Part shown: in pieces, positions 2-16,172 of the stretch | Position numbering within the stretch: position 1 is the stretch's first letter | Layout: each line of letters starts with the position of its first letter | NCBI GenBank assembly: GCA_016928995.1 | Contig: JAFGJS010000010.1 | Coordinates: forward strand, 1-23,705 | Reading direction: 5' to 3' | Source: Candidatus Sumerlaeota bacterium | Lineage (GTDB): Bacteria; Sumerlaeota; Sumerlaeia; JAFGJS01 | Length of the DNA: 23,705 bases | The notes under the pieces: model-generated | The model's input: only the letters and a program-made list of their open reading frames with translations | What the model was told of the DNA's origin: nothing | Database searches by the model: none | Program-made: the position numbers and the translations under genes

Positions 2-1309
2 CGGAATTATCAGTCGCCGGCGCTGGATGAGCTCAGAGAGGTTCCGCTGAGTTGGCAGATAATACTCTTTTACTGCTACTTTCCCGCTTGCGCGGCGGTT
101 GTGGTTTTCCGGCAGGGCATCGCCAGGGCGGCGAACTCATTCTGGCAATCGGTTCGAGTAACAAAACCATCCCGGAAGACTGGCAAGGACAGGAAACGAG
201 ATAAGAAACAAAAAAAGGTCAGTCACGAAGAAAGCGTCGTTGAGCAATCCAGCGCATTCAACTGGCGCCGCTGGACGGCGGGCACTATCCTGCTATTGAC
301 GCTGCCTGCGGCGATCGGACTTTACACGCTGGATCGGAACACAAAGACGTTGTCTAAAATCCAATACTGCTCCGAACATCAAATGTGGAATGATGTGCTC
401 GTGAACGCCAGGCGCCTGCCTTTGTCGCTTTACCTGTCCTCCTATGTGAATCATGATGTCAATCTCGCTTTGTACCACACCGGCCAAATGCCTTATGAGA
501 TGTTTCTTTATCCTCAGACAAAGCCCTACTGGGCTATTTTCGAGTTCAACGACCTGCCCGTCCAGCAGATCATCAAGCCATGCGATCTTTACCTGGAATT
601 GGGACGCGTGGGCGAAGCGGAACACATGGCGATGGAACTGTTGGATATGCAGCCCACCGGCGGCGCGCTTAAACGCATGGCGCTGGTGAAGATGATCAAA
701 GGCCAGATTCCCGCCGCGACGGTGTTTCTCAACGTTCTGCAGGATGACATGGTCTGGGGGCGCTGGGCTCAAGAATACCTGCAACGTCTCGCGAAGGATC
801 CGGAGCTTTCAAGCGATCCGGAAATCCAGCGCATCCGCGGACTGATGATCACGGAAGACGACCTTGAGCAAACCACGATCTATTTCCCCGATGGATCCAA
901 ATCCAACTATGTCGCGATGCTGCATAACCAGCTCGAACAAAACGGCCGGAATCAAATGGCCTTTGAGTATTACATGGCTCAGTGCCTGGTCATCGGCAAC
1001 TTGAAGAACGTTGTCGATGCGTTTCCCTTGCTGGATAACTTTTCCTATCCATCGATTCCGCCGGTTTACGAGGAAGCGGCGATGATTTACGGCTCAGTGA
1101 CTCAAGGCGAGATTGAGGAAAGACCATCGGGAGTTTTCTTTCGCGACTATAAAATCAGCGAGCCGACGTTAGCCAGGTGCCAAAGTTTTATGGAGATTTT
1201 AAGACGTTACGACGGCTTCAACAAGAAAGCAGAACCGGAAATCGCGCGCGCGGTTGGCGGCAGCTATTTTCATTATTTTTATTTGATGAAGTGTGGAGAC
1301 GCCCGATGA
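2..1309 (+). CDS. Membrane protein with C-terminal helical-repeat domain, copy 1 (5' end outside window)
   Basis: The frame is open from base 2 with no start, and its first residues align with the last membrane segment of the paralogue at 3362-5335 (shared 'LFYCYFPACA'), so the N-terminal membrane part lies left of the window. Seen: a final membrane-segment end, a Lys-rich linker (KDRKRDKKQKK), one more hydrophobic segment (around 295-325 nt), then a roughly 320-residue soluble domain opening with 'YCSEHQ'. That domain has helical, TPR-like texture ('LELGRVGEAEHMAMELL', 'MIKGQIPAATVFLNVL'). The stop TGA overlaps the ATG of the next gene (ATGA). From memory this resembles the DUF6057 family of Bacteroidota, which also sits beside PD40 proteins; not verified. 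Function unknown. It is probably an inner-membrane partner of the downstream heme-motif protein (inference from the conserved pairing). Confidence 0.8.
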   Translation, partial: RNYQSPALDELREVPLSWQIILFYCYFPACAAVVVFRQGIARAANSFWQSVRVTKPSRKTGKDRKRDKKQKKVSHEESVVEQSSAFNWRRWTAGTILLLTLPAAIGLYTLDRNTKTLSKIQYCSEHQMWNDVLVNARRLPLSLYLSSYVNHDVNLALYHTGQMPYEMFLYPQTKPYWAIFEFNDLPVQQIIKPCDLYLELGRVGEAEHMAMELLDMQPTGGALKRMALVKMIKGQIPAATVFLNVLQDDMVWGRWAQEYLQRLAKDPELSSDPEIQRIRGLMITEDDLEQTTIYFPDGSKSNYVAMLHNQLEQNGRNQMAFEYYMAQCLVIGNLKNVVDAFPLLDNFSYPSIPPVYEEAAMIYGSVTQGEIEERPSGVFFRDYKISEPTLARCQSFMEILRRYDGFNKKAEPEIARAVGGSYFHYFYLMKCGDAR

Positions 1310-2880
1310 ACAGGCGACACCTGATACTGATGCTTGTCGTGACTGCCTCCGCGGCGCTGGCGGCGCTCACGGCAATCGGGTGGAAGCAGGATAACAAGAA
1401 TCTGCCAACGGAGTGGACGGACGCCGGACGCCTTCCACAAATACGGCCTGACTATTGTGACATCGTTATTCCGCCGAATATCGCCCCGCTCAATTTCACG
1501 GTGGAGGAGCCTGGCATCGAGTACCAGACGCGCATTCATGGAACTCAGGGCGAGGAAATTTTCGTCGCCTCGCGCAATCCGGGCATTGTCATTCCAGAGC
1601 AACCGTGGCGTGAATTGCTCCAGGTGAATCGCGGCGGCAAAATCGGATTGGATATCTATGTCAAAGAACAGAATGGCAGCTGGCGCCGTTTTGCAATGAT
1701 CGAGAATGCCGTCGCGCAGGAGGAAATTGATTCACATCTGGCCTACCGGCTGCTGGGACCAGTGGGCGTCATGTACCGTAAGTTGGGAATCTATCAGCGG
1801 AACCTGGAAAACTACGACGAATCGCCGATCGTTAACAACGACTCAACCGGCGGCTGCTTCAATTGCCACACTTTCAGGGACAACTGTCCTGATGAATTTT
1901 CATTCCACGTTCGACCGGGAGTGCAGAAAGAATTAGTCACTTTGGGAATGATTGTCGCTCGCGACGGTAAAGCGAACCGGCTTGAGACCAAATCGGAGGC
2001 CGCGCCAAGCGCGCCGGGTTATCATTCCTGGCGCCGGGACGGACTTGCCGTCGCATTCTCATTCAGCAAAACGAGACAATACTTTCGCAATTGCGGACCC
2101 GATGTACGGGATGTTTTCGATATCGCGTCCGATCTGGCGATCGCGGATGCCAAGACCGGCGCCGCCTCAACGTCGCCGGACATCTCCACTCCCGACCATT
2201 TGGAAACTTTCCCCTGCTGGTCGGCCGACGGCAAGCATCTCTTCTACTGCAGCGCCCAAACGCCATGGAGCGCGGATGAATATCCCCGCGCGGAAAGCAT
2301 TCAACAGGTCAAATTTGACCTGATGCGCATACCATACGACATCGAAAGCAACACATGGGGCGAACCGGAAACGATGCTGGCGTCCGCGGAAACCGGAAAG
2401 ACCATCCTCGAACCCAGGGCTTCGCCTGACGGACGCCACCTGCTTTTCTGCATGTCGGACTACGGCGGTTTTCCAGTGCATCAGCCGGGTTGCGATTTGC
2501 ACATGATGAACCTGGAAAGCGGCGAGCATTGGCGTCTGGAGTGCAACAGCGACGAAGCTGATTCATGGCACTGCTGGTCAAGCAACTCCCGCTGGATCGT
2601 CTTCAGCAGCAAACGCGACAACGGATTCATGGCCCGGCCGTATTTCAGTTACATTGACGCGGATGGACGCGCACATAAGCCGTTCGTCCTGCCGCAGAAA
2701 AACCCAGCCTTTTATGACACCTGGATTAAAACGTATAATGTGCCGGAGTTGATCACAGGCCCCGTCACCGTGCCGCAAGAAGAATTATTGCAGGCCGTCC
2801 TTGCCGGCAGCGCCACGACCGGCGGAGCCGCGAGAGACAATGCATCGTGGCGAGCAACAACGAATTCGCCGATGCAATGA
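1306..2880 (+). CDS. Anchored PD40/TolB-like beta-propeller protein with CXXCH heme-c motif, copy 1
   Basis: 524 residues. The ATG at 1306 overlaps the upstream stop as ATGA and has GGAG at 1294-1297; an open frame upstream of it only duplicates the end of gene A. Residues 1-25 are a basic start plus a hydrophobic stretch without a clear cleavage site, so a signal anchor or signal peptide. An N-terminal beta-rich domain (about 40-170) precedes C184-F-N-C187-H188, a covalent heme-c motif. Propeller-type strands follow, such as 'FPCWSADGKHLFYCS', 'EPRASPDGRHLLFCMSDYGG' and 'SSNSRWIVFSSKRDNG', typical of PD40/WD40-like TolB repeats. If exported, it would be a periplasmic monoheme protein. Relatives are often labelled TolB-like or cytochrome c biosynthesis protein (memory), but nothing here shows a role in cytochrome assembly. 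Function unknown; the domain calls are firm. Confidence 0.85.
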   Translation: MNRRHLILMLVVTASAALAALTAIGWKQDNKNLPTEWTDAGRLPQIRPDYCDIVIPPNIAPLNFTVEEPGIEYQTRIHGTQGEEIFVASRNPGIVIPEQPWRELLQVNRGGKIGLDIYVKEQNGSWRRFAMIENAVAQEEIDSHLAYRLLGPVGVMYRKLGIYQRNLENYDESPIVNNDSTGGCFNCHTFRDNCPDEFSFHVRPGVQKELVTLGMIVARDGKANRLETKSEAAPSAPGYHSWRRDGLAVAFSFSKTRQYFRNCGPDVRDVFDIASDLAIADAKTGAASTSPDISTPDHLETFPCWSADGKHLFYCSAQTPWSADEYPRAESIQQVKFDLMRIPYDIESNTWGEPETMLASAETGKTILEPRASPDGRHLLFCMSDYGGFPVHQPGCDLHMMNLESGEHWRLECNSDEADSWHCWSSNSRWIVFSSKRDNGFMARPYFSYIDADGRAHKPFVLPQKNPAFYDTWIKTYNVPELITGPVTVPQEELLQAVLAGSATTGGAARDNASWRATTNSPMQ

Positions 2881-2928
2881 ATCAACCAACCCTCCACGCT
2901 TGAACTTCAGTCGCCGCCTGGAACGATC

Positions 2929-2990
2929 AGTAGTTATCATCTTAAACGCATACATATACTACAAGAAGAATAAACCTCAAGATAACTACT
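2929..2990. repeat. 10-bp inverted repeat with 42-nt spacer
   Basis: AGTAGTTATC at 2929-2938 is perfectly complementary to GATAACTACT at 2981-2990. It lies 49 nt after the stop of the first propeller gene. No U-tract follows directly, so it is not a classical intrinsic terminator. It may be a transcript-end stem or chance. Confidence 0.35.
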
Positions 2991-3096
2991 ACTTATTTAT
3001 AAAACCACAGGCGCCTTTCTTGCGGCATCCTTCAATGACAGATCTATTCGATTGACTGCTGATCCATTAATAGCGCCTTCTAAAAAATATGATTCT

Positions 3097-3188
3097 CGCA
3101 CAGGGCGCACAAAGCGCAGAGATTCAACAATTGTATATACACGGTCTAGCCAATCAGTCCTTTGTGTCTTCGTGTCTTTGTGGTGAAT
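3097..3188. repeat. Dispersed intergenic repeat ('HHKDTKTQR' type)
   Basis: The segment starts with a CGCACAGGG-CGCACAAAGCGCAGAG block (3097-3121) and ends with CTTTGTGTCTTCGTGTCTTT plus GTGGTGAA (3160-3187). The reverse frame gives the peptide HHKDTKTQR. I recall this pair of low-complexity blocks as a repeat seen between genes in many unrelated environmental bacterial genomes, often mis-called as short proteins. Only one copy lies in the window, so repetition within this genome is not shown here. Confidence 0.5.
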
Positions 3189-3361
3189 TTCCAAAGGTTG
3201 CCTAATGGCAAAACATTAATCGAAACCATGACTGCTAAAATTTCAACGTATTCGTGCAGGTTGACTACCGTTCCTTGTGCGAATCGCATTTAAAAATCTT
3301 CTTGCGAAGTTTACTCAAGATTTGCTACGTGCTGTTATCGAAAATGTGAGAATTGGCGATA

Positions 3362-5335
3362 ATGTTATCCTCTCATTCCGATCAGCCATCCCAGACGAAA
3401 GACCGTTTGAGTTTCTCGCGATCCGTGCGCGCGATGGGCGCTGTTCTTTTTCGCCCGCGCGTCGTCCTGTTCGTGGCGCTTTTGGGCTTGTACCTGTACG
3501 CCATTGTGGATGCGCGCCTGATCTTCCAGCTCCGCGATAAAATTTTTCTGTGGAATCTCCGCTTTTTCATGGGTTTCACCGGCCAATCTGGAGCATTATT
3601 GGAATGGTCGGACAGCCTGCTGGTGCAATTGTGCTACCGTGGCTGGCCGGGCGCGCTTGCTCTCTCAGCCATAACGTGGCTCCTTTTTGCCTCTACAATC
3701 GGATTCATGAACGCATCGGGCCGCGCAAACATTGGCGGCACGTGGATCATTCCGGGAATCTTCTTCATCTGGTTGTTCGGCAAATACTCGTTTCACACAT
3801 CGACAATCGTCGGATCAACTATGGCCATGGCCCTGGCCAACGGCTGGGCCAGACTGCCAGTGAAACGAATATGGCTGCGCCTGCCGTTATTTGCCGCTTT
3901 TTCAGCCGCCATATACTACATCGCGGGCGAAGCCGGTTTCTATTGTTTCGCAGCGTGTTGCATTATTTATGAGACGCTGGCCGAAAAACGGCGGTTGTCT
4001 GGAATATGGATGCTGCTGATCGGCGCCGGGGTGAAGTTCGGACTCCCTCCCGCGCTGGCCAGCCTGAACCTGACTGCCTGGACGTTTCATCCGCCTTTTC
4101 TGAATGATTACCTCAGAATCCCGCGAGGCTGGCACGTTACGCTTTTTTACTGTTACTTCCCGGCCTGCGCGTTGTTTGTGATCTATCGGCAGACTGCCGT
4201 CAGCTGGATAAAGTCATTGGGCAGGAAAAGTTCGGAAACGCCGCAAGACAAAGACGTTGAACAGGAACGCGCCACAGGCGTTTGTGGACGGATCCGCTGG
4301 ATGACCGAAACGCTGCTGCTGTTATCGCTGGCAGCTGCGGCGGGATTATACGGCTTGGATCGGGATCGCAAGGCGCTGCTGGAGATCGACTATTGCTCCG
4401 AGCATCAACAATGGAAAGATGTGCTTGAGCAAGCCGCGAATCTGCCGCCACAGCAATACACGCCCTATGTGAATCATGATGTCAATCTTGCGCTGTATCA
4501 TACGGGACATTTGCCTGATCGGATGTTTAGCTACCCTCAGAAATACATGGCTTTATTATTTCAGGAACAAGTTCCCGAATTCGCGATGCTCCGCAAGCCG
4601 TGTGATCTGCTGCTGGAACTGGGGCGCGTCAACGAGGCTGAGCACAAGGCCCTGGAAATGATGGAACTATGGCCGACCGGCGGAGCGCTCAAACGCGTCG
4701 CGCTGGCGAAGATGATCAAAGGCCAGATTCCCGCCGCGACAGTTTTACTCAACGTCTTGCGGGATGATCTCGTGTGGGGCCGCTGGGCCGAAGGATATTT
4801 GCAGCGCCTGGCGGAGGATCCGGAGCTGGCGAGCAATGAGGAAATCCAGCGAATACGCCAGCTGATGGTTACTGAAGACGACCTCTATCTCTATGGAACA
4901 TTCACCCAAGAAAACGAATTCTGGTATTACAACCCACCCGCCCTGTTATCAGGGTTGCTGAAAAAGAACGGGCGAAACCAAATGACCTTCGAGTGCCTCA
5001 TGGCGATGTATCTCTTCAATGACAACGTGCAGGCGGCGGTCGAAACATTTTCCTATCTGGACAACTTCTCCTATCCGTCGGTTCCATTGCATTATGAAGA
5101 AGCGGCAATGATTTATGGCACGCAACATCCCGAGGAGATCAAGCAAACGCCATCGGGAATCTTTATCCGCGGCCTGAAAATCAGCCCTGCTACAGAGGAC
5201 AAGTGCCGCCGCTATCTGGAGCTTGTCCGGCGATATCGCGGCTTCAAAAAGGAAGCGGAACCGGATGTCGTACGCGAGCTGGAAGGCAGCTATTTTCAGT
5301 ATTATTATCTGTCACGTTGTGGAGATGCGCCATGA
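3362..5335 (+). CDS. Polytopic membrane protein with C-terminal helical-repeat domain, copy 2
   Basis: 657 residues from the ATG at 3362; a TTG nine bases earlier is possible, and no strong Shine-Dalgarno decides. About eight hydrophobic segments are visible: near 34-51, 96-115, 126-140, 144-161, 172-200, 203-222, 248-265 and 316-330. After a charged linker (270-305) and the last segment, a soluble domain (about 335-657) begins with 'EIDYCSEHQ' and contains TPR-like helical pairs. It is clearly paralogous to the gene ending at 1309 over the whole shared part, with near-identical blocks such as 'MIKGQIPAATV' and 'NFSYPS'. It ends in an ATGA overlap with its propeller partner, as in copy 1. It probably belongs to the DUF6057 family (memory). 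Not recognised as an enzyme; likely an envelope complex subunit (inference). Confidence 0.8.
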   Translation: MLSSHSDQPSQTKDRLSFSRSVRAMGAVLFRPRVVLFVALLGLYLYAIVDARLIFQLRDKIFLWNLRFFMGFTGQSGALLEWSDSLLVQLCYRGWPGALALSAITWLLFASTIGFMNASGRANIGGTWIIPGIFFIWLFGKYSFHTSTIVGSTMAMALANGWARLPVKRIWLRLPLFAAFSAAIYYIAGEAGFYCFAACCIIYETLAEKRRLSGIWMLLIGAGVKFGLPPALASLNLTAWTFHPPFLNDYLRIPRGWHVTLFYCYFPACALFVIYRQTAVSWIKSLGRKSSETPQDKDVEQERATGVCGRIRWMTETLLLLSLAAAAGLYGLDRDRKALLEIDYCSEHQQWKDVLEQAANLPPQQYTPYVNHDVNLALYHTGHLPDRMFSYPQKYMALLFQEQVPEFAMLRKPCDLLLELGRVNEAEHKALEMMELWPTGGALKRVALAKMIKGQIPAATVLLNVLRDDLVWGRWAEGYLQRLAEDPELASNEEIQRIRQLMVTEDDLYLYGTFTQENEFWYYNPPALLSGLLKKNGRNQMTFECLMAMYLFNDNVQAAVETFSYLDNFSYPSVPLHYEEAAMIYGTQHPEEIKQTPSGIFIRGLKISPATEDKCRRYLELVRRYRGFKKEAEPDVVRELEGSYFQYYYLSRCGDAP

Positions 5336-6906
5336 GCCGGCGAAGATTCATCCTGGTGATTGTCGTGGCAGCTGCGATCGCGTCGGCGTTGCTCGTCGCG
5401 TATGGATGGCGACAGGCCAGCCAGGATCATCCCGATCAATACGTTGACACTCCTCGCCTCCCGCAGATACGACCCGACTACGGCGAGATCGTCATTCCGC
5501 CCAACATCGCTCCGTTGAATTTTTTGGTGGAAGAACCGGGTATCGAGTTCCGTGTGCGAATCCATGGAGCCGGAGACCAGGACATTCTCATCGCCTCGCA
5601 CGATCCGAGCATCGTTATTCCACAGCAACCGTGGCGCGAACTGCTCCTGGAAAATCGCGGCGGCAAAATCGGTCTGGACATCTATGTCAAAGGGCAAGAC
5701 GGCCGCTGGTCCCGCTTTAAGCAGATCGAGAACACCGTCGCGCAAGAAAAAATCGATTCGCACCTCGTTTACAGATTGCTGGGACCGGTATGCAATTACT
5801 TCAACGAAACCGGAGTCTATCAGCGGAACCTGGAAAACTTCGACGTATCGCCGATCCTGACGAGCCATTCGTTCGGCGGCTGCGTCAATTGTCACAGTTT
5901 CAAGGGGAATGATCCCAAAGAGTTCTCGCTCCACATACGCCCGGGGCCGTATAGCATGAATGCCGCGTCGGGAATGATCCGCGTGCGCGATGGACACGCG
6001 GTGCGGCTGCAGACCAAATCAGCGGCCGCGCCGAGGCCGCCAGGTTACATCGCCTGGCATCCTGACGGTTTGGCGGTCGCCTACTCGATGAACAAACCGG
6101 CCCAGGTCTTCCGCGCGGCTGGGGATGAAATCCGGGACGTGCTAGACTTCTATTCCGATCTGGCGGTTGCCAACACTGAGACCGGCGCCTCTTCCTCGTC
6201 GCCGGACATCTCCGATCCCGGTCGGCTGGAAACTTTCCCATGTTGGTCGGCCGACGGCAAAGAGATTTACTATTGCAGCGCCCAATCGAAGTGGGGCAAG
6301 GACAACCCCCCAGATCCGGAAAGCATGAAGAAACTCATGTTCGATCTCGTGCGCGTTGAATACAACGCCGAAGACAATACGTTCGGTCCGCCGGAGACGG
6401 TCCTGGCAGCCTCGGATACAGGCATGAGCATCACCGAGCCCCGCGCCTCGCCCGACGGACGCTATCTCCTTTGCTGCATGTTGGACTACGGCATGTTCCC
6501 GCTCTTCCGGTCCAGCGCCGATTTGTATCTCATGGACCTTAAGACCGGCGATTACCGGCGGCTGGAATGCAACAGCGACAGTTGCGAGGCATGGCACAGT
6601 TGGTCGAGCAACTCGCGCTGGATCGTCTTCAGCAGCAAACGCGACAACGGATTGCTGGCGCGGCCTTATTTTAGTTACATCGACGCGGAGGGGCGCGCGC
6701 ACAAGCCATTCGTCCTGCCGCAGAAAGACCCAGCCTTTTACGATGCTTGGCTCAAGACATATAATGTGCCGGAGTTGATCACGGGACCGGTCAAGGTATC
6801 CCAAAAGGAATTGTTGCAGGCCATCTTTTCCGTCAACGCCTCTGCCGACGGAGTTCCCCAACCCGGCGGATCATGGCAAGCAACCAAAAGTCCGCAGATG
6901 CACTAA
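5332..6906 (+). CDS. Anchored PD40/TolB-like beta-propeller protein with CXXCH heme-c motif, copy 2
   Basis: 524 residues, the same length as copy 1 and collinear with it. The ATG at 5332 overlaps the upstream TGA as ATGA, with GGAG at 5321-5324. It has an N-terminal hydrophobic anchor (about 6-24), then the heme motif C184-V-N-C187-H188 at exactly the position seen in copy 1, then propeller strands ('FPCWSADGKEIYYCS', 'EPRASPDGRYLLCCMLDYG', 'SSNSRWIVFSSKRDNG'). The last third ('YFSYIDAEGRAHKPFVLPQ', 'YNVPELITGPV') is almost identical between copies, while the stretch after the heme motif differs more. Likely a periplasmic monoheme propeller protein working with the adjacent membrane protein. 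Substrate or electron partner unknown. Confidence 0.85.
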   Translation: MSRRRFILVIVVAAAIASALLVAYGWRQASQDHPDQYVDTPRLPQIRPDYGEIVIPPNIAPLNFLVEEPGIEFRVRIHGAGDQDILIASHDPSIVIPQQPWRELLLENRGGKIGLDIYVKGQDGRWSRFKQIENTVAQEKIDSHLVYRLLGPVCNYFNETGVYQRNLENFDVSPILTSHSFGGCVNCHSFKGNDPKEFSLHIRPGPYSMNAASGMIRVRDGHAVRLQTKSAAAPRPPGYIAWHPDGLAVAYSMNKPAQVFRAAGDEIRDVLDFYSDLAVANTETGASSSSPDISDPGRLETFPCWSADGKEIYYCSAQSKWGKDNPPDPESMKKLMFDLVRVEYNAEDNTFGPPETVLAASDTGMSITEPRASPDGRYLLCCMLDYGMFPLFRSSADLYLMDLKTGDYRRLECNSDSCEAWHSWSSNSRWIVFSSKRDNGLLARPYFSYIDAEGRAHKPFVLPQKDPAFYDAWLKTYNVPELITGPVKVSQKELLQAIFSVNASADGVPQPGGSWQATKSPQMH

Positions 6907-11087: not shown

Positions 11088-12230
11088 TTAACCGGAATAG
11101 TCGGCGCGGATGGCTTCGATCTGTTCGTAGGCGCCGTTGAGGATTTCGACGAGCTGGGGATCGAAGTGTGTGCCGGCGCCTTCCTGGATGATGCCGAGCG
11201 TTTTTTCAATGGGGAATTCCTTTTTATACGGCCGCTCGGAACGCAACGCGTCGTAAACGTCGGCCAAAGCCACAACGCGGCATTCAACCGGAATGTCCTC
11301 GCCCGCCACTTTATTCGGATATCCGCTGCCGTCCCATTTCTCATGATGCCCGATGGCGATAGTAGCGGCGACCTGCAACAAGGGATTCATCATCACCTGT
11401 GCGCCATTGCCGCCGTTTCCGTTGTCATCAGTCATACGGTCTCCAAGCCATTCCAGAAACCGCAGCATGCCGATCGGCGGTTTCATCAGGATGTTCGCGC
11501 CAATCTCGCAATGCCGTTCCATGACCGCGCGCTCATCAGGATCCAGTCTGCCGGGTTTGAGCAGCACGGAATCGGGAATGCCGATCTTGCCGATGTCATG
11601 CAGCGGCGCGGCGAGGAAGACTTTGTTCGTGAAATCTTTGTCGAGCTCCAACTCGCTGCAAAGAATGCGCGCATAATGCCCCACACGGATAATGTGGTTG
11701 CCGGTTTCCTCGTCGCGGTATTCACCGGCCTTGGCCAGCCGCCAGATGATGTCGAGGCGCGAGACTTCCAGCTCCTGCGTCCGTTCGCGCACCCGTTGCT
11801 CCAATTCCTCGTTCTGACGGCGGATTGTGTCCTGATACTCTTTCAGCCGCAGGGAGTTGCGCAGCCGCGCAATCAGATCTTCCTGATTCACCGGTTTGTT
11901 CAGCAGATCCGTCGCGCCCAAATCCAGCGCCTTTCGCTTGGCCGCCTCGTCGGTGTTGCCGGTGACGATGATGACCGGCGTGTCCTTAGTGACTTCCAAC
12001 GCGCGAATCTCGCGCACCAGGTCGAAGCCATTCTTCAAGGGCATGTGGAAGTCCGAGACGACAACATCAGGGGCTGTCTCGCGCGCCTTGTCCACGGCTT
12101 CATCGACGCTATTGGCGAATTCGAAGGTCCATTCATCACGAAACTTGCGCAGTAACCGTCGGATCGCGCTGAGGAAATGCGGATCGTCGTCGACGAATAA
12201 TATTCGGGGTGATCCATTTAAGCCATTCAT
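11088..12230 (-). CDS. Response regulator with HD-GYP c-di-GMP phosphodiesterase domain
   Basis: 380 residues. The REC domain (about 8-125) has acidic pocket D14-D15, phosphoacceptor D60 and K112. A coiled coil (about 130-158) links to an HD-GYP domain (about 160-375) with H211-D212 in HDIGKIGIPD, GHH at 294-296 and GSGYP at 301-305, so the catalytic motifs are intact. It should hydrolyse c-di-GMP when phosphorylated. An insertion of roughly 30 residues (about 250-283, including DDNGNGGNG) lies between the usual 'GANIL' and 'LLQVA' positions. It is the last gene of the operon, 13 nt after the REC-HDOD gene, with AAAGAG directly before the ATG. It most likely receives phosphate from the kinase two genes upstream (inference). 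Confidence 0.92.
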   Translation of the reverse strand: MNGLNGSPRILFVDDDPHFLSAIRRLLRKFRDEWTFEFANSVDEAVDKARETAPDVVVSDFHMPLKNGFDLVREIRALEVTKDTPVIIVTGNTDEAAKRKALDLGATDLLNKPVNQEDLIARLRNSLRLKEYQDTIRRQNEELEQRVRERTQELEVSRLDIIWRLAKAGEYRDEETGNHIIRVGHYARILCSELELDKDFTNKVFLAAPLHDIGKIGIPDSVLLKPGRLDPDERAVMERHCEIGANILMKPPIGMLRFLEWLGDRMTDDNGNGGNGAQVMMNPLLQVAATIAIGHHEKWDGSGYPNKVAGEDIPVECRVVALADVYDALRSERPYKKEFPIEKTLGIIQEGAGTHFDPQLVEILNGAYEQIEAIRADYSG

Positions 12231-12243
12231 CTCTTTTATCCTG

Positions 12244-13488
12244 TTATAACGCCCTGTTTTTAGCTTCGTGCTCCAAAGCGTCGTTCGCGCCGGCTTCAGG
12301 GCAAAACTGCGCCCATGGCGACAGACGATCCGTCATCCCCAGTCGTTTAAAATACGCAAAGTCGAGCTCATGCGCAGGGAGAACATCAGGCGCTGGCAAA
12401 GCGCCGTTTAATTTCATCAACCCGTTCGCCGCATGCACGGCTGTCAGCGGATTGAATTTTTCACTCACACTGTCGCTGGGCGTATGGTGATACGCCAGCG
12501 CTTCGATGATGTCGTCTCCCAGCCCCCAGACGCTCATCAGATAAGCGCCAATCGAGGCATGCGACGTGCCGATGATCTTCATCTCGGCCTCCCAGTAGCT
12601 CAGGCCTTCGTTCTGCACGGCCAACAGCACTTGCGCGTATTGCTCCGGATTTTGGCTGGCAAGCACGAGTTTTCCGATGTCATGCACGATCCCAGCCAGA
12701 AACGCGGCGTCTCCCAAGCGCTTCTCGTCGCTTTCTGTCGTGGCGATCTGCCGCGCGGCCACGCCTACGTACATGCTGTGGGCCTGCATCTGTTCGAGCG
12801 AAAATCCGGGAAGCTGCTCCAAGGTGGAATTGGAAAAAATATGCACCGTGAGCACGAGCGACTTGATCGTTTCCATTCCAAGCAGCTGGACGGCCTGCGG
12901 GATGTTGCTGATGTGCCGCGGCATGCCGAAAAAGGCGGAGTTGACCAACTGCAGGATTTTCGAAGCCATGCCCAGATCGCTTTCAATGATGCGACCGACG
13001 TTCTTGATCGACGAGTCGGGAGAGTTCAGTTCCTCCACGATGCGTGTGTAAAGCTGCGGCATGCTTGGCAATGATTCAACCTGCAGCACCAGGCGGCTCA
13101 ACGTTTCATCCGCGAGCAGCTCGCGCAGGGCGCAGGCGCGCTGGATCGCCGTTTTCAGCATATCAGGATCGCAGGGCTTGGAAAGAAACTGATGCGTCAG
13201 TCCGACAGTGCGCAGCGTGGCCTCCTGTTCGGTGAAGCCAGTGAGCACGATGCGCGCCGCGCGCGGGTATTCCTTCTTGACGCGTTTCAACAGCTCGCCG
13301 CCGTCCATGCCAGGCATGCGCATATCGGTGACCACCACATCGCACGGCTCGACGGCCAGCAGATCCAGCGCCTGCTGCCCGCCAGAGGCGTAGACCATCT
13401 CCCACTCCTCACGCATCGAGCGGAGCATGCGCCGCAAGCCATTGAGCACATTGCGGTCGTCATCGACAAAAATCACACGCCGTTTCAT
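12244..13488 (-). CDS. Response regulator with HDOD output domain
   Basis: 414 residues. The REC domain (1-120) has D10-D11, phosphoacceptor D55 and K104. The HDOD domain (about 135-330) shows 'LPSMPQLYTRIVEEL', the 'DLGMASKILQLVNSAFFG' signature and 'HDIGK' at 269-273. HDOD domains are usually non-enzymatic signalling domains; here the HD pair is kept, but the GYP signature is absent. The start overlaps the kinase stop by 4 nt (ATGA at 13488-13485), so the two are translationally coupled. The role is probably downstream signalling with the kinase and HD-GYP protein. The target is unknown. Confidence 0.9.
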   Translation of the reverse strand: MKRRVIFVDDDRNVLNGLRRMLRSMREEWEMVYASGGQQALDLLAVEPCDVVVTDMRMPGMDGGELLKRVKKEYPRAARIVLTGFTEQEATLRTVGLTHQFLSKPCDPDMLKTAIQRACALRELLADETLSRLVLQVESLPSMPQLYTRIVEELNSPDSSIKNVGRIIESDLGMASKILQLVNSAFFGMPRHISNIPQAVQLLGMETIKSLVLTVHIFSNSTLEQLPGFSLEQMQAHSMYVGVAARQIATTESDEKRLGDAAFLAGIVHDIGKLVLASQNPEQYAQVLLAVQNEGLSYWEAEMKIIGTSHASIGAYLMSVWGLGDDIIEALAYHHTPSDSVSEKFNPLTAVHAANGLMKLNGALPAPDVLPAHELDFAYFKRLGMTDRLSPWAQFCPEAGANDALEHEAKNRAL

Positions 13489-14414
13489 GATCCATCACCG
13501 CCGTCATCAGAGCGGATGGGCAGGAAGATGTGGAACGTGGTTCCCTGCCCCACTTCGCTTTCCAGTTTGAGTTCGCCGCCGTGTTTATCCACCACGACGG
13601 AACGGGCAATGGCCAATCCCTGTCCCGTGCCGCGCCCCACTTCCTTAGTCGTAAAAAAAGGCTCAAAAATACGCTCGCGGATTTCCAGCGGGATTCCCGC
13701 GCCAGTGTCGCTGATCGTAATCTCTACCCGCTCCCCTGCCGTCCGGGCGCCGATGCGAATCAAGCCTTTTTCCTTGCGATCCTTGCCGACCTTCTCCTCG
13801 ATCGCATGCGCCGCGTTGATGATTAAATTCAGGAACACCTGGTTGATTTCGCCAGGCAGGCAGGTCACCATCGGCAACTGCGGCTCGATATCCGTCTCCA
13901 GCTCCGCCACGTATTTCCACTCATTGCGCGAAACAGTGATCGTGCTGTTCAGCGCGCGGCTCAGGTCCACTTCCTTCTTCTCATCGCTGCCGGGATGCGA
14001 AAATTCCTTCATCGCCAGCACAATCTTCGATACGCGCTGCACACCGTCCAACGACTGTTCCAAGGATTGAGGAATTTCCTCTTCGAGATATTCGATGTCG
14101 ATTTCTTCCCGGACATCGCTAACGACCCGGCAATACTCCTGTAAATCATCATGCTTTTGAGCAGCTTCCCACAGCGCCAGATAAGCCTCGCACATTTTTT
14201 TCAGGTCGCTCAACGCTTCATCCAGGAAGTGCAGGTTGTCGCCGATGTACTGAATCGGCGTATTCAGCTCATGCGCGATGCCCGCCGCCAGCTGCCCAAT
14301 CGCGGCCAGCTTGCTGGATTGCCCCAGCTCCAGCCGCGATTCCGCGTCCTTACGGGCGGCTCGCTCACGATCCAATTCGAGTCTCAATGATTGCAAATCG
14401 TCTTGTTGCAGCAT
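13485..14414 (-). CDS. Soluble sensor histidine kinase
   Basis: 309 residues; an in-frame stop just upstream fixes the start region at 14414. There are no membrane segments and no recognised sensor domain: the N-terminus is a short coiled coil (1-35). The kinase core has the H box 'GQLAAGIAHELNTPIQYI' with H48, a long dimerisation/linker segment (60-180), the N box 'NLIINAAHAIEE' (196-207), G1 'DTGAGIP' (236-242), F 'FEPFFTTK' (250-257) and G2 'GTGQGLAIA' (262-270). All catalytic boxes are intact. Its input must come from a partner protein or through the coiled coil (inference). It is first in the operon with the REC-HDOD and REC-HD-GYP genes. Confidence 0.92.
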   Translation of the reverse strand: MLQQDDLQSLRLELDRERAARKDAESRLELGQSSKLAAIGQLAAGIAHELNTPIQYIGDNLHFLDEALSDLKKMCEAYLALWEAAQKHDDLQEYCRVVSDVREEIDIEYLEEEIPQSLEQSLDGVQRVSKIVLAMKEFSHPGSDEKKEVDLSRALNSTITVSRNEWKYVAELETDIEPQLPMVTCLPGEINQVFLNLIINAAHAIEEKVGKDRKEKGLIRIGARTAGERVEITISDTGAGIPLEIRERIFEPFFTTKEVGRGTGQGLAIARSVVVDKHGGELKLESEVGQGTTFHIFLPIRSDDGGDGS

Positions 14415-14429
14415 AATTCACCCGTTTCC

Positions 14430-14467
14430 GGGCATGGCAGAGCCTGCCCGTTCATGGACTTATCCAT
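14430..14467. promoter_or_regulatory. Two adjacent inverted repeats in divergent promoter region
   Basis: The first is GGGCA-T-GGC-AGA-GCC-TGCCC (14430-14449), a near-perfect stem with one bulged T. The second is ATGGA-CTTA-TCCAT (14454-14467), a perfect 5-bp stem. They lie 16 nt before the kinase ATG (leftward) and about 130 nt before the sigma-54 activator ATG (rightward). They may be operator sites or a leader hairpin of the kinase mRNA; no binding protein can be named. Confidence 0.4.
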
Positions 14468-14600
14468 AGTTCTTATCGGCGCCGCAAAAGGAATCCAAAG
14501 CGAAATCCTTGCAATTCATCCGATGCATTCGTACTTGCGGAATCCGGGAAAACTTGACATATTTCGTCATCCAGGCTGCAAAGAATGCAAGGAGCGCACA

Positions 14601-16172
14601 ATGCCATTTATCTCCAAAAATGAACGGCGGATGCTTGAGGTCATTTCCGAGCTGACCTATGTCAATCCCTTTCTCCCCGAGCGCATCGCGCTGGAGCGCA
14701 GCCTGCTGGGCGAGCATTTCCACGAATCGCGCGCCGACTGGAACGTCACCGCCGAAATCAACTGGGATCATCCGAACGTGATCCGCGTGGTGAGCGAGGC
14801 GGAAAAACTGCAACTCCGGATCGGTGAAGCGCTGAAATCCGGCGGCGCCGAACCGTCCACCGAAGAGACGCGGCTATACATCGACCTGGTGCTGTTTCTG
14901 ATCTACCATCGCTATCGCCGCCAGTTCGACGAAATGATCGAGGGCGAGGAAGGCGGCGTGATCTCGCGCAAGGTGCCGATCTGGCAAAACTTCTGGGAAG
15001 ACTACCAAAAGGCCATTGATCTGCCGGGATTGTCCGGCGCCGACCACAAGGTCGCGGCCCATTTCTTCGCCGGCTTCTTCCAGGTGCGGCGGGCGTTCTA
15101 CCACATCTTCCGCTCGATGATCGGCGGCTCGCGTCCGATGACGCAACTCCGCGCGCAGGTCTGGCAGTCGATCTTCACCCACGACATGCGGCGCTACAGC
15201 CGCCTGATGCATCAGCGCATGCAGGACATGACCTGCCTGATCACCGGTCCCTCCGGCACAGGCAAGGAGCTCGTCGCCCGCGCCATCGGACTCTCGCGCT
15301 ACATCCCGTTCGACACGGGATCGATGCAGTTCGCCCACGATTTCTCCGAGACATTCTTCCCGCTCAACCTTTCGGCGCTCTCGCCGACGCTGATCGAATC
15401 GGAGCTCTTCGGCCATAAGAAGGGCGCCTTCACCGGCGCGCTGCAGGATCGCGCGGGATGGCTCGAAGCCTGCCCGGCGATGGGCACGGTTTTCCTCGAT
15501 GAAATCGGCGACATCACGCCGGAGATTCAGGTGAAGCTGCTGCGTGTGCTGCAACAGCGCGTGTTCAACCGGCTCGGTGACACGCAGGCGCTGCGCTTCC
15601 AGGGCAAGATCATCGCCGCCACGAACCGCGACCTGGCGCGCGAAATCGAGGCCGGGCGTTTCCGCGAAGACCTATACTATCGCATCTGCAGCGACCGGAT
15701 CGTGACGCCGTCGCTGCACGAGCAAATCGCCGACAACTTCGACACGCTGCCGCGGCTCGTGCGGCACATCGCCGAGCGGCTGACCACCGAGGATGAGGCG
15801 GACGGACTGGCGGCGGAGGTGATGGAGTGGGTGGAAGGGCGGCTAGGCCGCGAATACGCCTGGCCGGGAAACGTGCGCGAGCTCGAGCAATGCGTGCGCA
15901 ACATCCTCATCCGCAAGGAATACCACCCTCACGGCGCCAGCCGCGCCACGAGCGATGCGCCGTTCAGCAACATCACCGGACGCATGCAGAGCGGCGACCT
16001 TCCGCTTGACGAGCTGCTTCAATTCTACTGTTCCTGGATCTACGCCCAAAGCGGCAACTACCAGGAAGCCGCGCGCCGCCTACAGGTCGATCACCGCACG
16101 GTCAAGGCCCGCGTGGATCAAACGCTGGTGGAACAATTCCAGCAATCGCAAAATTCATCCACGCAACGCTGA
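14601..16172 (+). CDS. Sigma-54-dependent transcriptional activator with unassigned N-terminal domain
   Basis: 523 residues; ATG at 14601 with AAGGAG at 14589-14594, so longer in-frame extensions upstream are rejected. The AAA+ domain has Walker A GPSGTGK (216-222), the sigma-54 contact loop GAFTGA (275-280), Walker B VFLDEIGD (297-304), 'REDLYYR' (355-361) and WPGNVREL (421-428). A Fis-type HTH '[20 protein letters not shown]' lies at about 485-504. The usual 'LRER' after 'LYYR' reads LHEQ here. Residues 1-195 are neither REC, GAF nor PAS by eye; they include '[20 protein letters not shown]' and are mostly helical, presumably sensing. It is divergent from the kinase operon. Its target promoter was not found in the window. 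Confidence 0.9.

Follow-up and report, generated by a model that had tools for sequence, protein, structure and literature searches.

The closest known counterpart of the gene pair analysed here is found in Parabacteroides distasonis, where the NCBI annotation records a DUF6057 protein (hereafter protein A) followed by a "PD40 domain-containing protein" (protein B): the same families in the same order, in a tandem A-B-A-B arrangement and with a CxNCH motif in B. The annotation gives neither a function nor a named system. A literature search found no paper naming DUF6057, and none on PD40 proteins in Bacteroides or on combined propeller/cytochrome proteins. By fold, B comes closest to TolB of the Tol-Pal system (Z 26.6 over 276 residues), but it differs from TolB in carrying a c-type heme motif and scores 24.7 and 28.2 bits on TIGR02800, well short of the cut-off of 343; no Tol-Pal genes were noticed beside the A-B pairs examined. 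Lower among the fold matches stands the alpha subunit of hydrazine synthase (5c2v; Z 24.1 over 295 residues), which combines, like B, a propeller with c-type heme. Its heme alpha-I, with residues His587 and Tyr591 (PMC12758564), lies beyond the aligned propeller (chain 54-551), and a second heme site accompanies it, whereas the single CxxCH of B stands at residue 184, ahead of most blades, and B is not a member of that family; a PDB sequence search with B did not match hydrazine synthase alpha. The FkbO/Hyg5/XanB2 chorismatases resemble a third protein, R, which shares with them the catalytic Glu and, as it appears from the alignment, the Gly of the SGTA motif and a Cys seven residues ahead of that Glu (CH-II; PMC7170507). 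R differs from these enzymes in its N-terminal third and scores far under the NCBIfam cut-off, and no polyketide genes were seen around it. Finally, TMTC-type O-mannosyltransferases consist, like A, of a polytopic membrane part followed by TPR, but no sequence relation is detectable between their membrane part and that of A.

The window, the whole stretch of DNA that was analysed, comprises 23705 bases and is the entire contig C47 of a genome in 161 contigs that is 92.5% complete and 0.53% contaminated. ORF calls in region 2-6906 reveal two successive A-B pairs, with all four genes on the plus strand. The first A gene (A1, 2..1309) is represented by its 3' 435 codons; because the window is all of the contig, A1 is open at its 5' side, and most of its N-terminal membrane part is missing, lost at the contig end. 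It is followed by B1 (1306..2880; 524 aa), which comprises an N-terminal hydrophobic segment, an N-terminal domain, a CxxCH motif and a TolB-like propeller, then by a complete A2 of 657-660 aa (3353 or 3362..5335) and by B2 (5332..6906), another heme-propeller protein of 524 aa. Sequence inspection showed that the stop codon of A and the start codon of B overlap in ATGA at both junctions (1306..1309 and 5332..5335, plus strand), each with a ribosome-binding-like GGAGA upstream. By alignment, the heme c motif occupies residues 184-188 of both B proteins, as CFNCH in B1 (1855..1869, plus strand) and CVNCH in B2 (5881..5895, plus strand). The initial annotation, made from the sequence alone, had described two pairs of the same order with the same 4-nt overlap and B proteins of 524 residues each, and the ORFs and junctions confirm this description.

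Profile searches, which that annotation had recommended, assign both proteins to families. A2 and the partial A1 score 243.4 and 179.6 bits on PF19529 (DUF6057; cut-off 29.8 bits), and B1 and B2 score 39.8 and 44.7 bits on PD40 (cut-off 20.9 bits), B being TolB-like by fold and not by TIGR02800. B1 and B2 align without gaps; complete B proteins elsewhere in the source genome range from ~510 to 540 aa, and the identical length of the two window copies is partly coincidence. The pairs had been thought intact, and indeed both are under purifying selection (dN/dS 0.37/1.11 for A1/A2 and 0.28/0.96 for B1/B2), with no decayed copy found. Downstream of the array lies a FeoB gene on the opposite strand and, farther on, unrelated regulators and transporters. 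FeoB was considered as a partner of the module and rejected, as it was not seen beside the other A-B copies of the genome.

The source genome encodes 11 A proteins (PF19529 above the cut-off) and 11 B proteins (found by a search with B), bearing out the expectation that further copies might exist, and in all 11 cases B lies directly downstream of A, with an overlap or a short gap. Among 40 genomes of its phylum, this is the only one with the A-B pair. A B-profile scan of 84,980 species genomes, from which the best 78 loci were kept, extended the pairing to Planctomycetota, Lentisphaerota, Verrucomicrobiota, KSB1, WOR-3, Ignavibacteria, Calditrichaeota, Bacteroidota, Armatimonadota, Acidobacteriota and further groups, named as in the record titles. 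An A gene neighbours B at 71 of these loci; in 4 of the remaining 7, B stands at a contig edge, hence 71 of 74 testable loci are paired. Many are tandem arrays, the longest reading A-B-A-B-A-B-A (L056). In 20 whole genomes, which were reached via B and are therefore no random draw, 44 of 46 B genes are paired, 40 of them in the order A-B. When 148 Bacteroidota genomes were drawn from the side of A, 3 had A above the cut-off, and both of the newly found ones have a B with CxNCH beside it. Four DUF6057-PD40 pairs are annotated in Parabacteroides distasonis, of which two stand in tandem, and records from Phocaeicola and Bacteroides fragilis also contain A-B.

The complete pairing in the source genome and the near-universal pairing elsewhere are far beyond chance. 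The tree distances of A and B are, moreover, strongly correlated, with r 0.94 for the 11 pairs of the source genome (a value reached in 0 of 5000 permutations) and 0.84 for 81 pairs (no permutation as high); the value of 0.94 is the one free of shared species history. A and B are thus inherited together and constitute an ancient, often amplified evolutionary unit. The idea that they work as a unit had been put forward at the outset, together with what would speak against it, namely partners found mostly apart or a decayed copy, and neither was found.

The origin of the two window copies proved less simple than the local tandem duplication first envisaged. Identity is 54% between the two A proteins and about 60-62% between the two B proteins, whereas B1 and the B of another contig of the same genome (C33) share about 69-71%. 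A tree with B1 and B2 as sister duplicates was rejected (p-AU 0.017), B1 grouping with the C33 copy. The A tree is equivocal: A1 and A2 group with support of 80/78, and the grouping of A1 with the C33 copy is not rejected (p-AU 0.355). The 11 copies of the genome form no single clade and fall into at least three lineages, one with a Lentisphaerota relative, one near a planctomycete locus (L067) and one near a Pirellulales locus (L120). The natural reading is horizontal acquisition followed by local copying; alternatively, the rarity of A-B across the phylum may reflect gene loss in the relatives.

Clustering of the neighbouring genes revealed one recurrent family, R, of ~400 aa, present in 13 of the best 78 B loci and in several phyla, mostly immediately 5' of A or 3' of B. 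Against a link between R and A-B, R stands beside only some A-B copies, and the source genome has a single R for its 11 pairs; this R abuts A on contig C121 (L037:10994-12274, minus strand; about 27993-29273 of the contig). A further family, C, of ~770 aa, contains a CxxCH-propeller and then TPR in a single chain and adjoins A-B or R at five loci (L081, L095, L100, L154 and L159). The fusion hints that propeller and TPR belong or act together, although TPR is a generic fold. An R-type match was obtained in all 20 A-B genomes (92-567 bits); the lower scores in some of them (92-180 bits) may represent other chorismatase relatives. Within the phylum, R matches above 120 bits were obtained in all 3 genomes that have A-B or C-like genes (G000, G003, G005), compared with 3 of the 37 that have neither; R-bearing genomes devoid of A-B, such as G004, G006 and G008, count against the link.

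R matches PDB 5ag3 (E 7e-23) and FkbO (4bps, E 1e-17), and scores 34-67 bits on TIGR04444, whose cut-off of 325 places it outside that family. E410, C403 and G324 are invariant in 13 R proteins and align to 5ag3 and FkbO. With the residue roles reported for Hyg5-type (CH-II) chorismatases, in which the catalytic Glu is E334 of Hyg5 (PMC7170507), our own reading of the alignment suggests that the Gly and Cys of R are equivalent to the CH-II positions. R is a distant relative of the FkbO/Hyg5 chorismatases in which the catalytic Glu is kept. Relatives of R with no recognised heme neighbour were found in nine genomes (G004, G006, G008, G043, G044, G051, G053, G054 and G055), and R is therefore a wider family. 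A benzoate-CoA ligase beside A-B in G059 was also considered as a partner and set aside because it was absent from every other locus examined.

A structural model of B built from 88 sequences (pLDDT 92.1) comprises an N-terminal helix, a small domain and then the propeller, and 81 of the 88 B proteins have a hydrophobic N-terminal segment. An envelope location, initially a conjecture, is supported by the fold, by these segments and by the c-heme motif. Two His residues of the propeller are near-invariant, H243 (98%) and H422 (93%), and could be regarded as candidate second ligands of the heme. TolB is a protein-binding propeller, and its place as nearest fold fits an alternative reading of A-B as an envelope scaffold or sensor, in which a TolB-like B would dock partners and carry a gas- or redox-sensing heme, A would relay its state over the inner membrane, and R would be a loose metabolic neighbour. 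The same two His residues could complete a six-coordinate sensor heme, and the many paralogues per genome resemble a receptor set. However, profile searches found no signalling domains on A or B, the neighbour clustering shows no conserved regulator adjoining the pairs, and R recurs beside heme-propeller proteins in several phyla, which makes this reading an unlikely one. We prefer to regard A-B as an inner-membrane-anchored c-heme module tied to a predicted product of R.

PF19529 also matches all 71 rows of the A alignment (A3), from which a model was obtained with pLDDT 89.5. In the model, A2 has membrane helices in about residues 30-331, followed by a helical C-terminal half; residues 333-492 resemble TPR proteins in structure comparison (Z up to 11.8, which is modest for helical repeats), and Pfam TPR models match several relatives of A. 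A combines a polytopic membrane part, for which no recognised fold is among the structure matches listed, with a TPR half. This layout is that of the TMTC proteins, and A could be conceived as a diverged GT-C (TMTC-like) transferase with B as its periplasmic adaptor, moving the aromatic made by R, or a sugar, to an envelope acceptor. A weak, sub-threshold DUF6057 match in the source genome is a PMT_2 protein, and in G005, a genome of the phylum without A-B, R adjoins two TMTC-type membrane-plus-TPR proteins (L149 1477-8267). In profile comparison, however, the membrane part of A matched 12 GT-C proteins no better than 7 unrelated membrane proteins: alignments with single GT-C proteins gave 0.1-1.2% probability for the membrane parts, like the controls, and the two higher values (9.4 and 12.1) fall in the TPR; an earlier set gave 6.6%. 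No GT-C protein is among the Foldseek/VIA structure matches listed for A, which are dominated by TPR, and the DD motif of TMTC was not seen in A. We consider a transferase role improbable and return to the heme module.

One CxxCH is present in each B of the window, and the motif is kept in 99 of 99 aligned B proteins (11 of 11 from the source genome and 88 of 88 rows of alignment A4), with C184, C187 and H188 invariant across the 88, which come from many phyla. A cytochrome c assembly gene (PF01578) was found in 23 of 24 genomes checked, and ResB/CcsA genes lie inside the locus itself in a WOR-3 genome (A-B-A-B-ResB/CcsA-R) and in a Lentisphaerota genome (A-B-R-ResB-CcsA). With a CxxCH motif, the signs of an exported protein and a heme-attachment system in its host, B has the sequence attributes by which a c-type cytochrome is predicted. 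That the motif is a structural metal or disulfide site in a propeller strand, with no heme, would accord with its single occurrence per protein and with the heme-free model of B, which draws residues 183-190 as strand, an unusual setting for a CxxCH heme site, but is very improbable given the invariance of C-C-H in the 99 aligned rows, its presence also in family C, and the occurrence of genes for cytochrome c assembly in almost every genome checked and inside two of the loci.

These observations suggest a model where A and B would be obligate partners in an inner-membrane-anchored periplasmic module, the TPR half of A lying in the periplasm and docking the propeller of B, with heme c supplied to B by the ResB/CcsA system of the cell. 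R would convert chorismate to a small aromatic, most simply a hydroxybenzoate, and the module would carry out one-electron redox chemistry on or with this aromatic, or bind it in a redox-dependent manner; the multiple A-B copies could serve different substrates or partners. The components of this model differ in strength. A paired, heme-bearing, membrane-anchored A-B module is highly probable, and a functional link of A-B to R is likely. For the whole, an inner-membrane-anchored periplasmic c-heme module tied to a chorismate-derived aromatic, the balance tips slightly in favour. In a bolder and less probable reading, R, A and B would make up a system not described before, with a hydroxybenzoate derived from chorismate as the substrate, electron carrier or cofactor of a membrane-docked periplasmic c-heme propeller, the R type also serving family C and YncE/CCP_MauG-type proteins. 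A specific aromatic redox step is doubtful.

Both A and B are catalogued in databases and yet undescribed, and R as a third partner is new here. The module is best filed with membrane-anchored periplasmic c-heme proteins, and could turn out to be a system of a new kind should the link to R be confirmed. The model proposes a concrete role for two uncharacterised families that occur across many phyla, common human gut Bacteroidales included, and a functional handle on them, namely the c-type heme and a partner that uses chorismate. If true, the link to R would imply periplasmic use of hydroxybenzoate by heme-propeller proteins outside the known pigment and polyketide pathways.

Several further observations were made in the window and at related loci. 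A PADLOC search for defence systems matched neither A nor B. The spacer between B1 and A2 contains a dispersed repeat (window 3079-3205) with the core CACCACAAAGACACGAAGACACAAAG on the minus strand; more than 20 similar sites occur in the source genome, with about 72-94% identity, and an Rfam search of the window, this repeat included, gave no match. Positions 11088-16172 of the window hold a cluster of an HD-domain response regulator, an HDOD response regulator, a histidine kinase and a sigma-54 activator. At another locus (L068 1853-5905), one open frame of 1350 aa has DUF6057 confined to its last 560 residues; its first part appears ABC permease-like by eye and has no Pfam match.

Relatives of R were also seen in other settings. 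In an Acidobacteriota A-B genome (L192 2539-8922), one follows aroB, aroE-aroK, aroA and aroC on the same strand, with a multiheme cytochrome beyond; its place behind the chorismate synthase gene of an aro operon speaks for the proposed role of R. Also in favour, others adjoin proteins that unite a propeller with CCP_MauG or cytochrome c domains in P. distasonis (L185 6139-16474), where the cluster also includes ccsA, and in G056 (L194 5666-9353). Another R relative of P. distasonis (L186 1594-9486) lies amid genes for a porin, an imelysin, a di-heme oxidoreductase and a hemerythrin.
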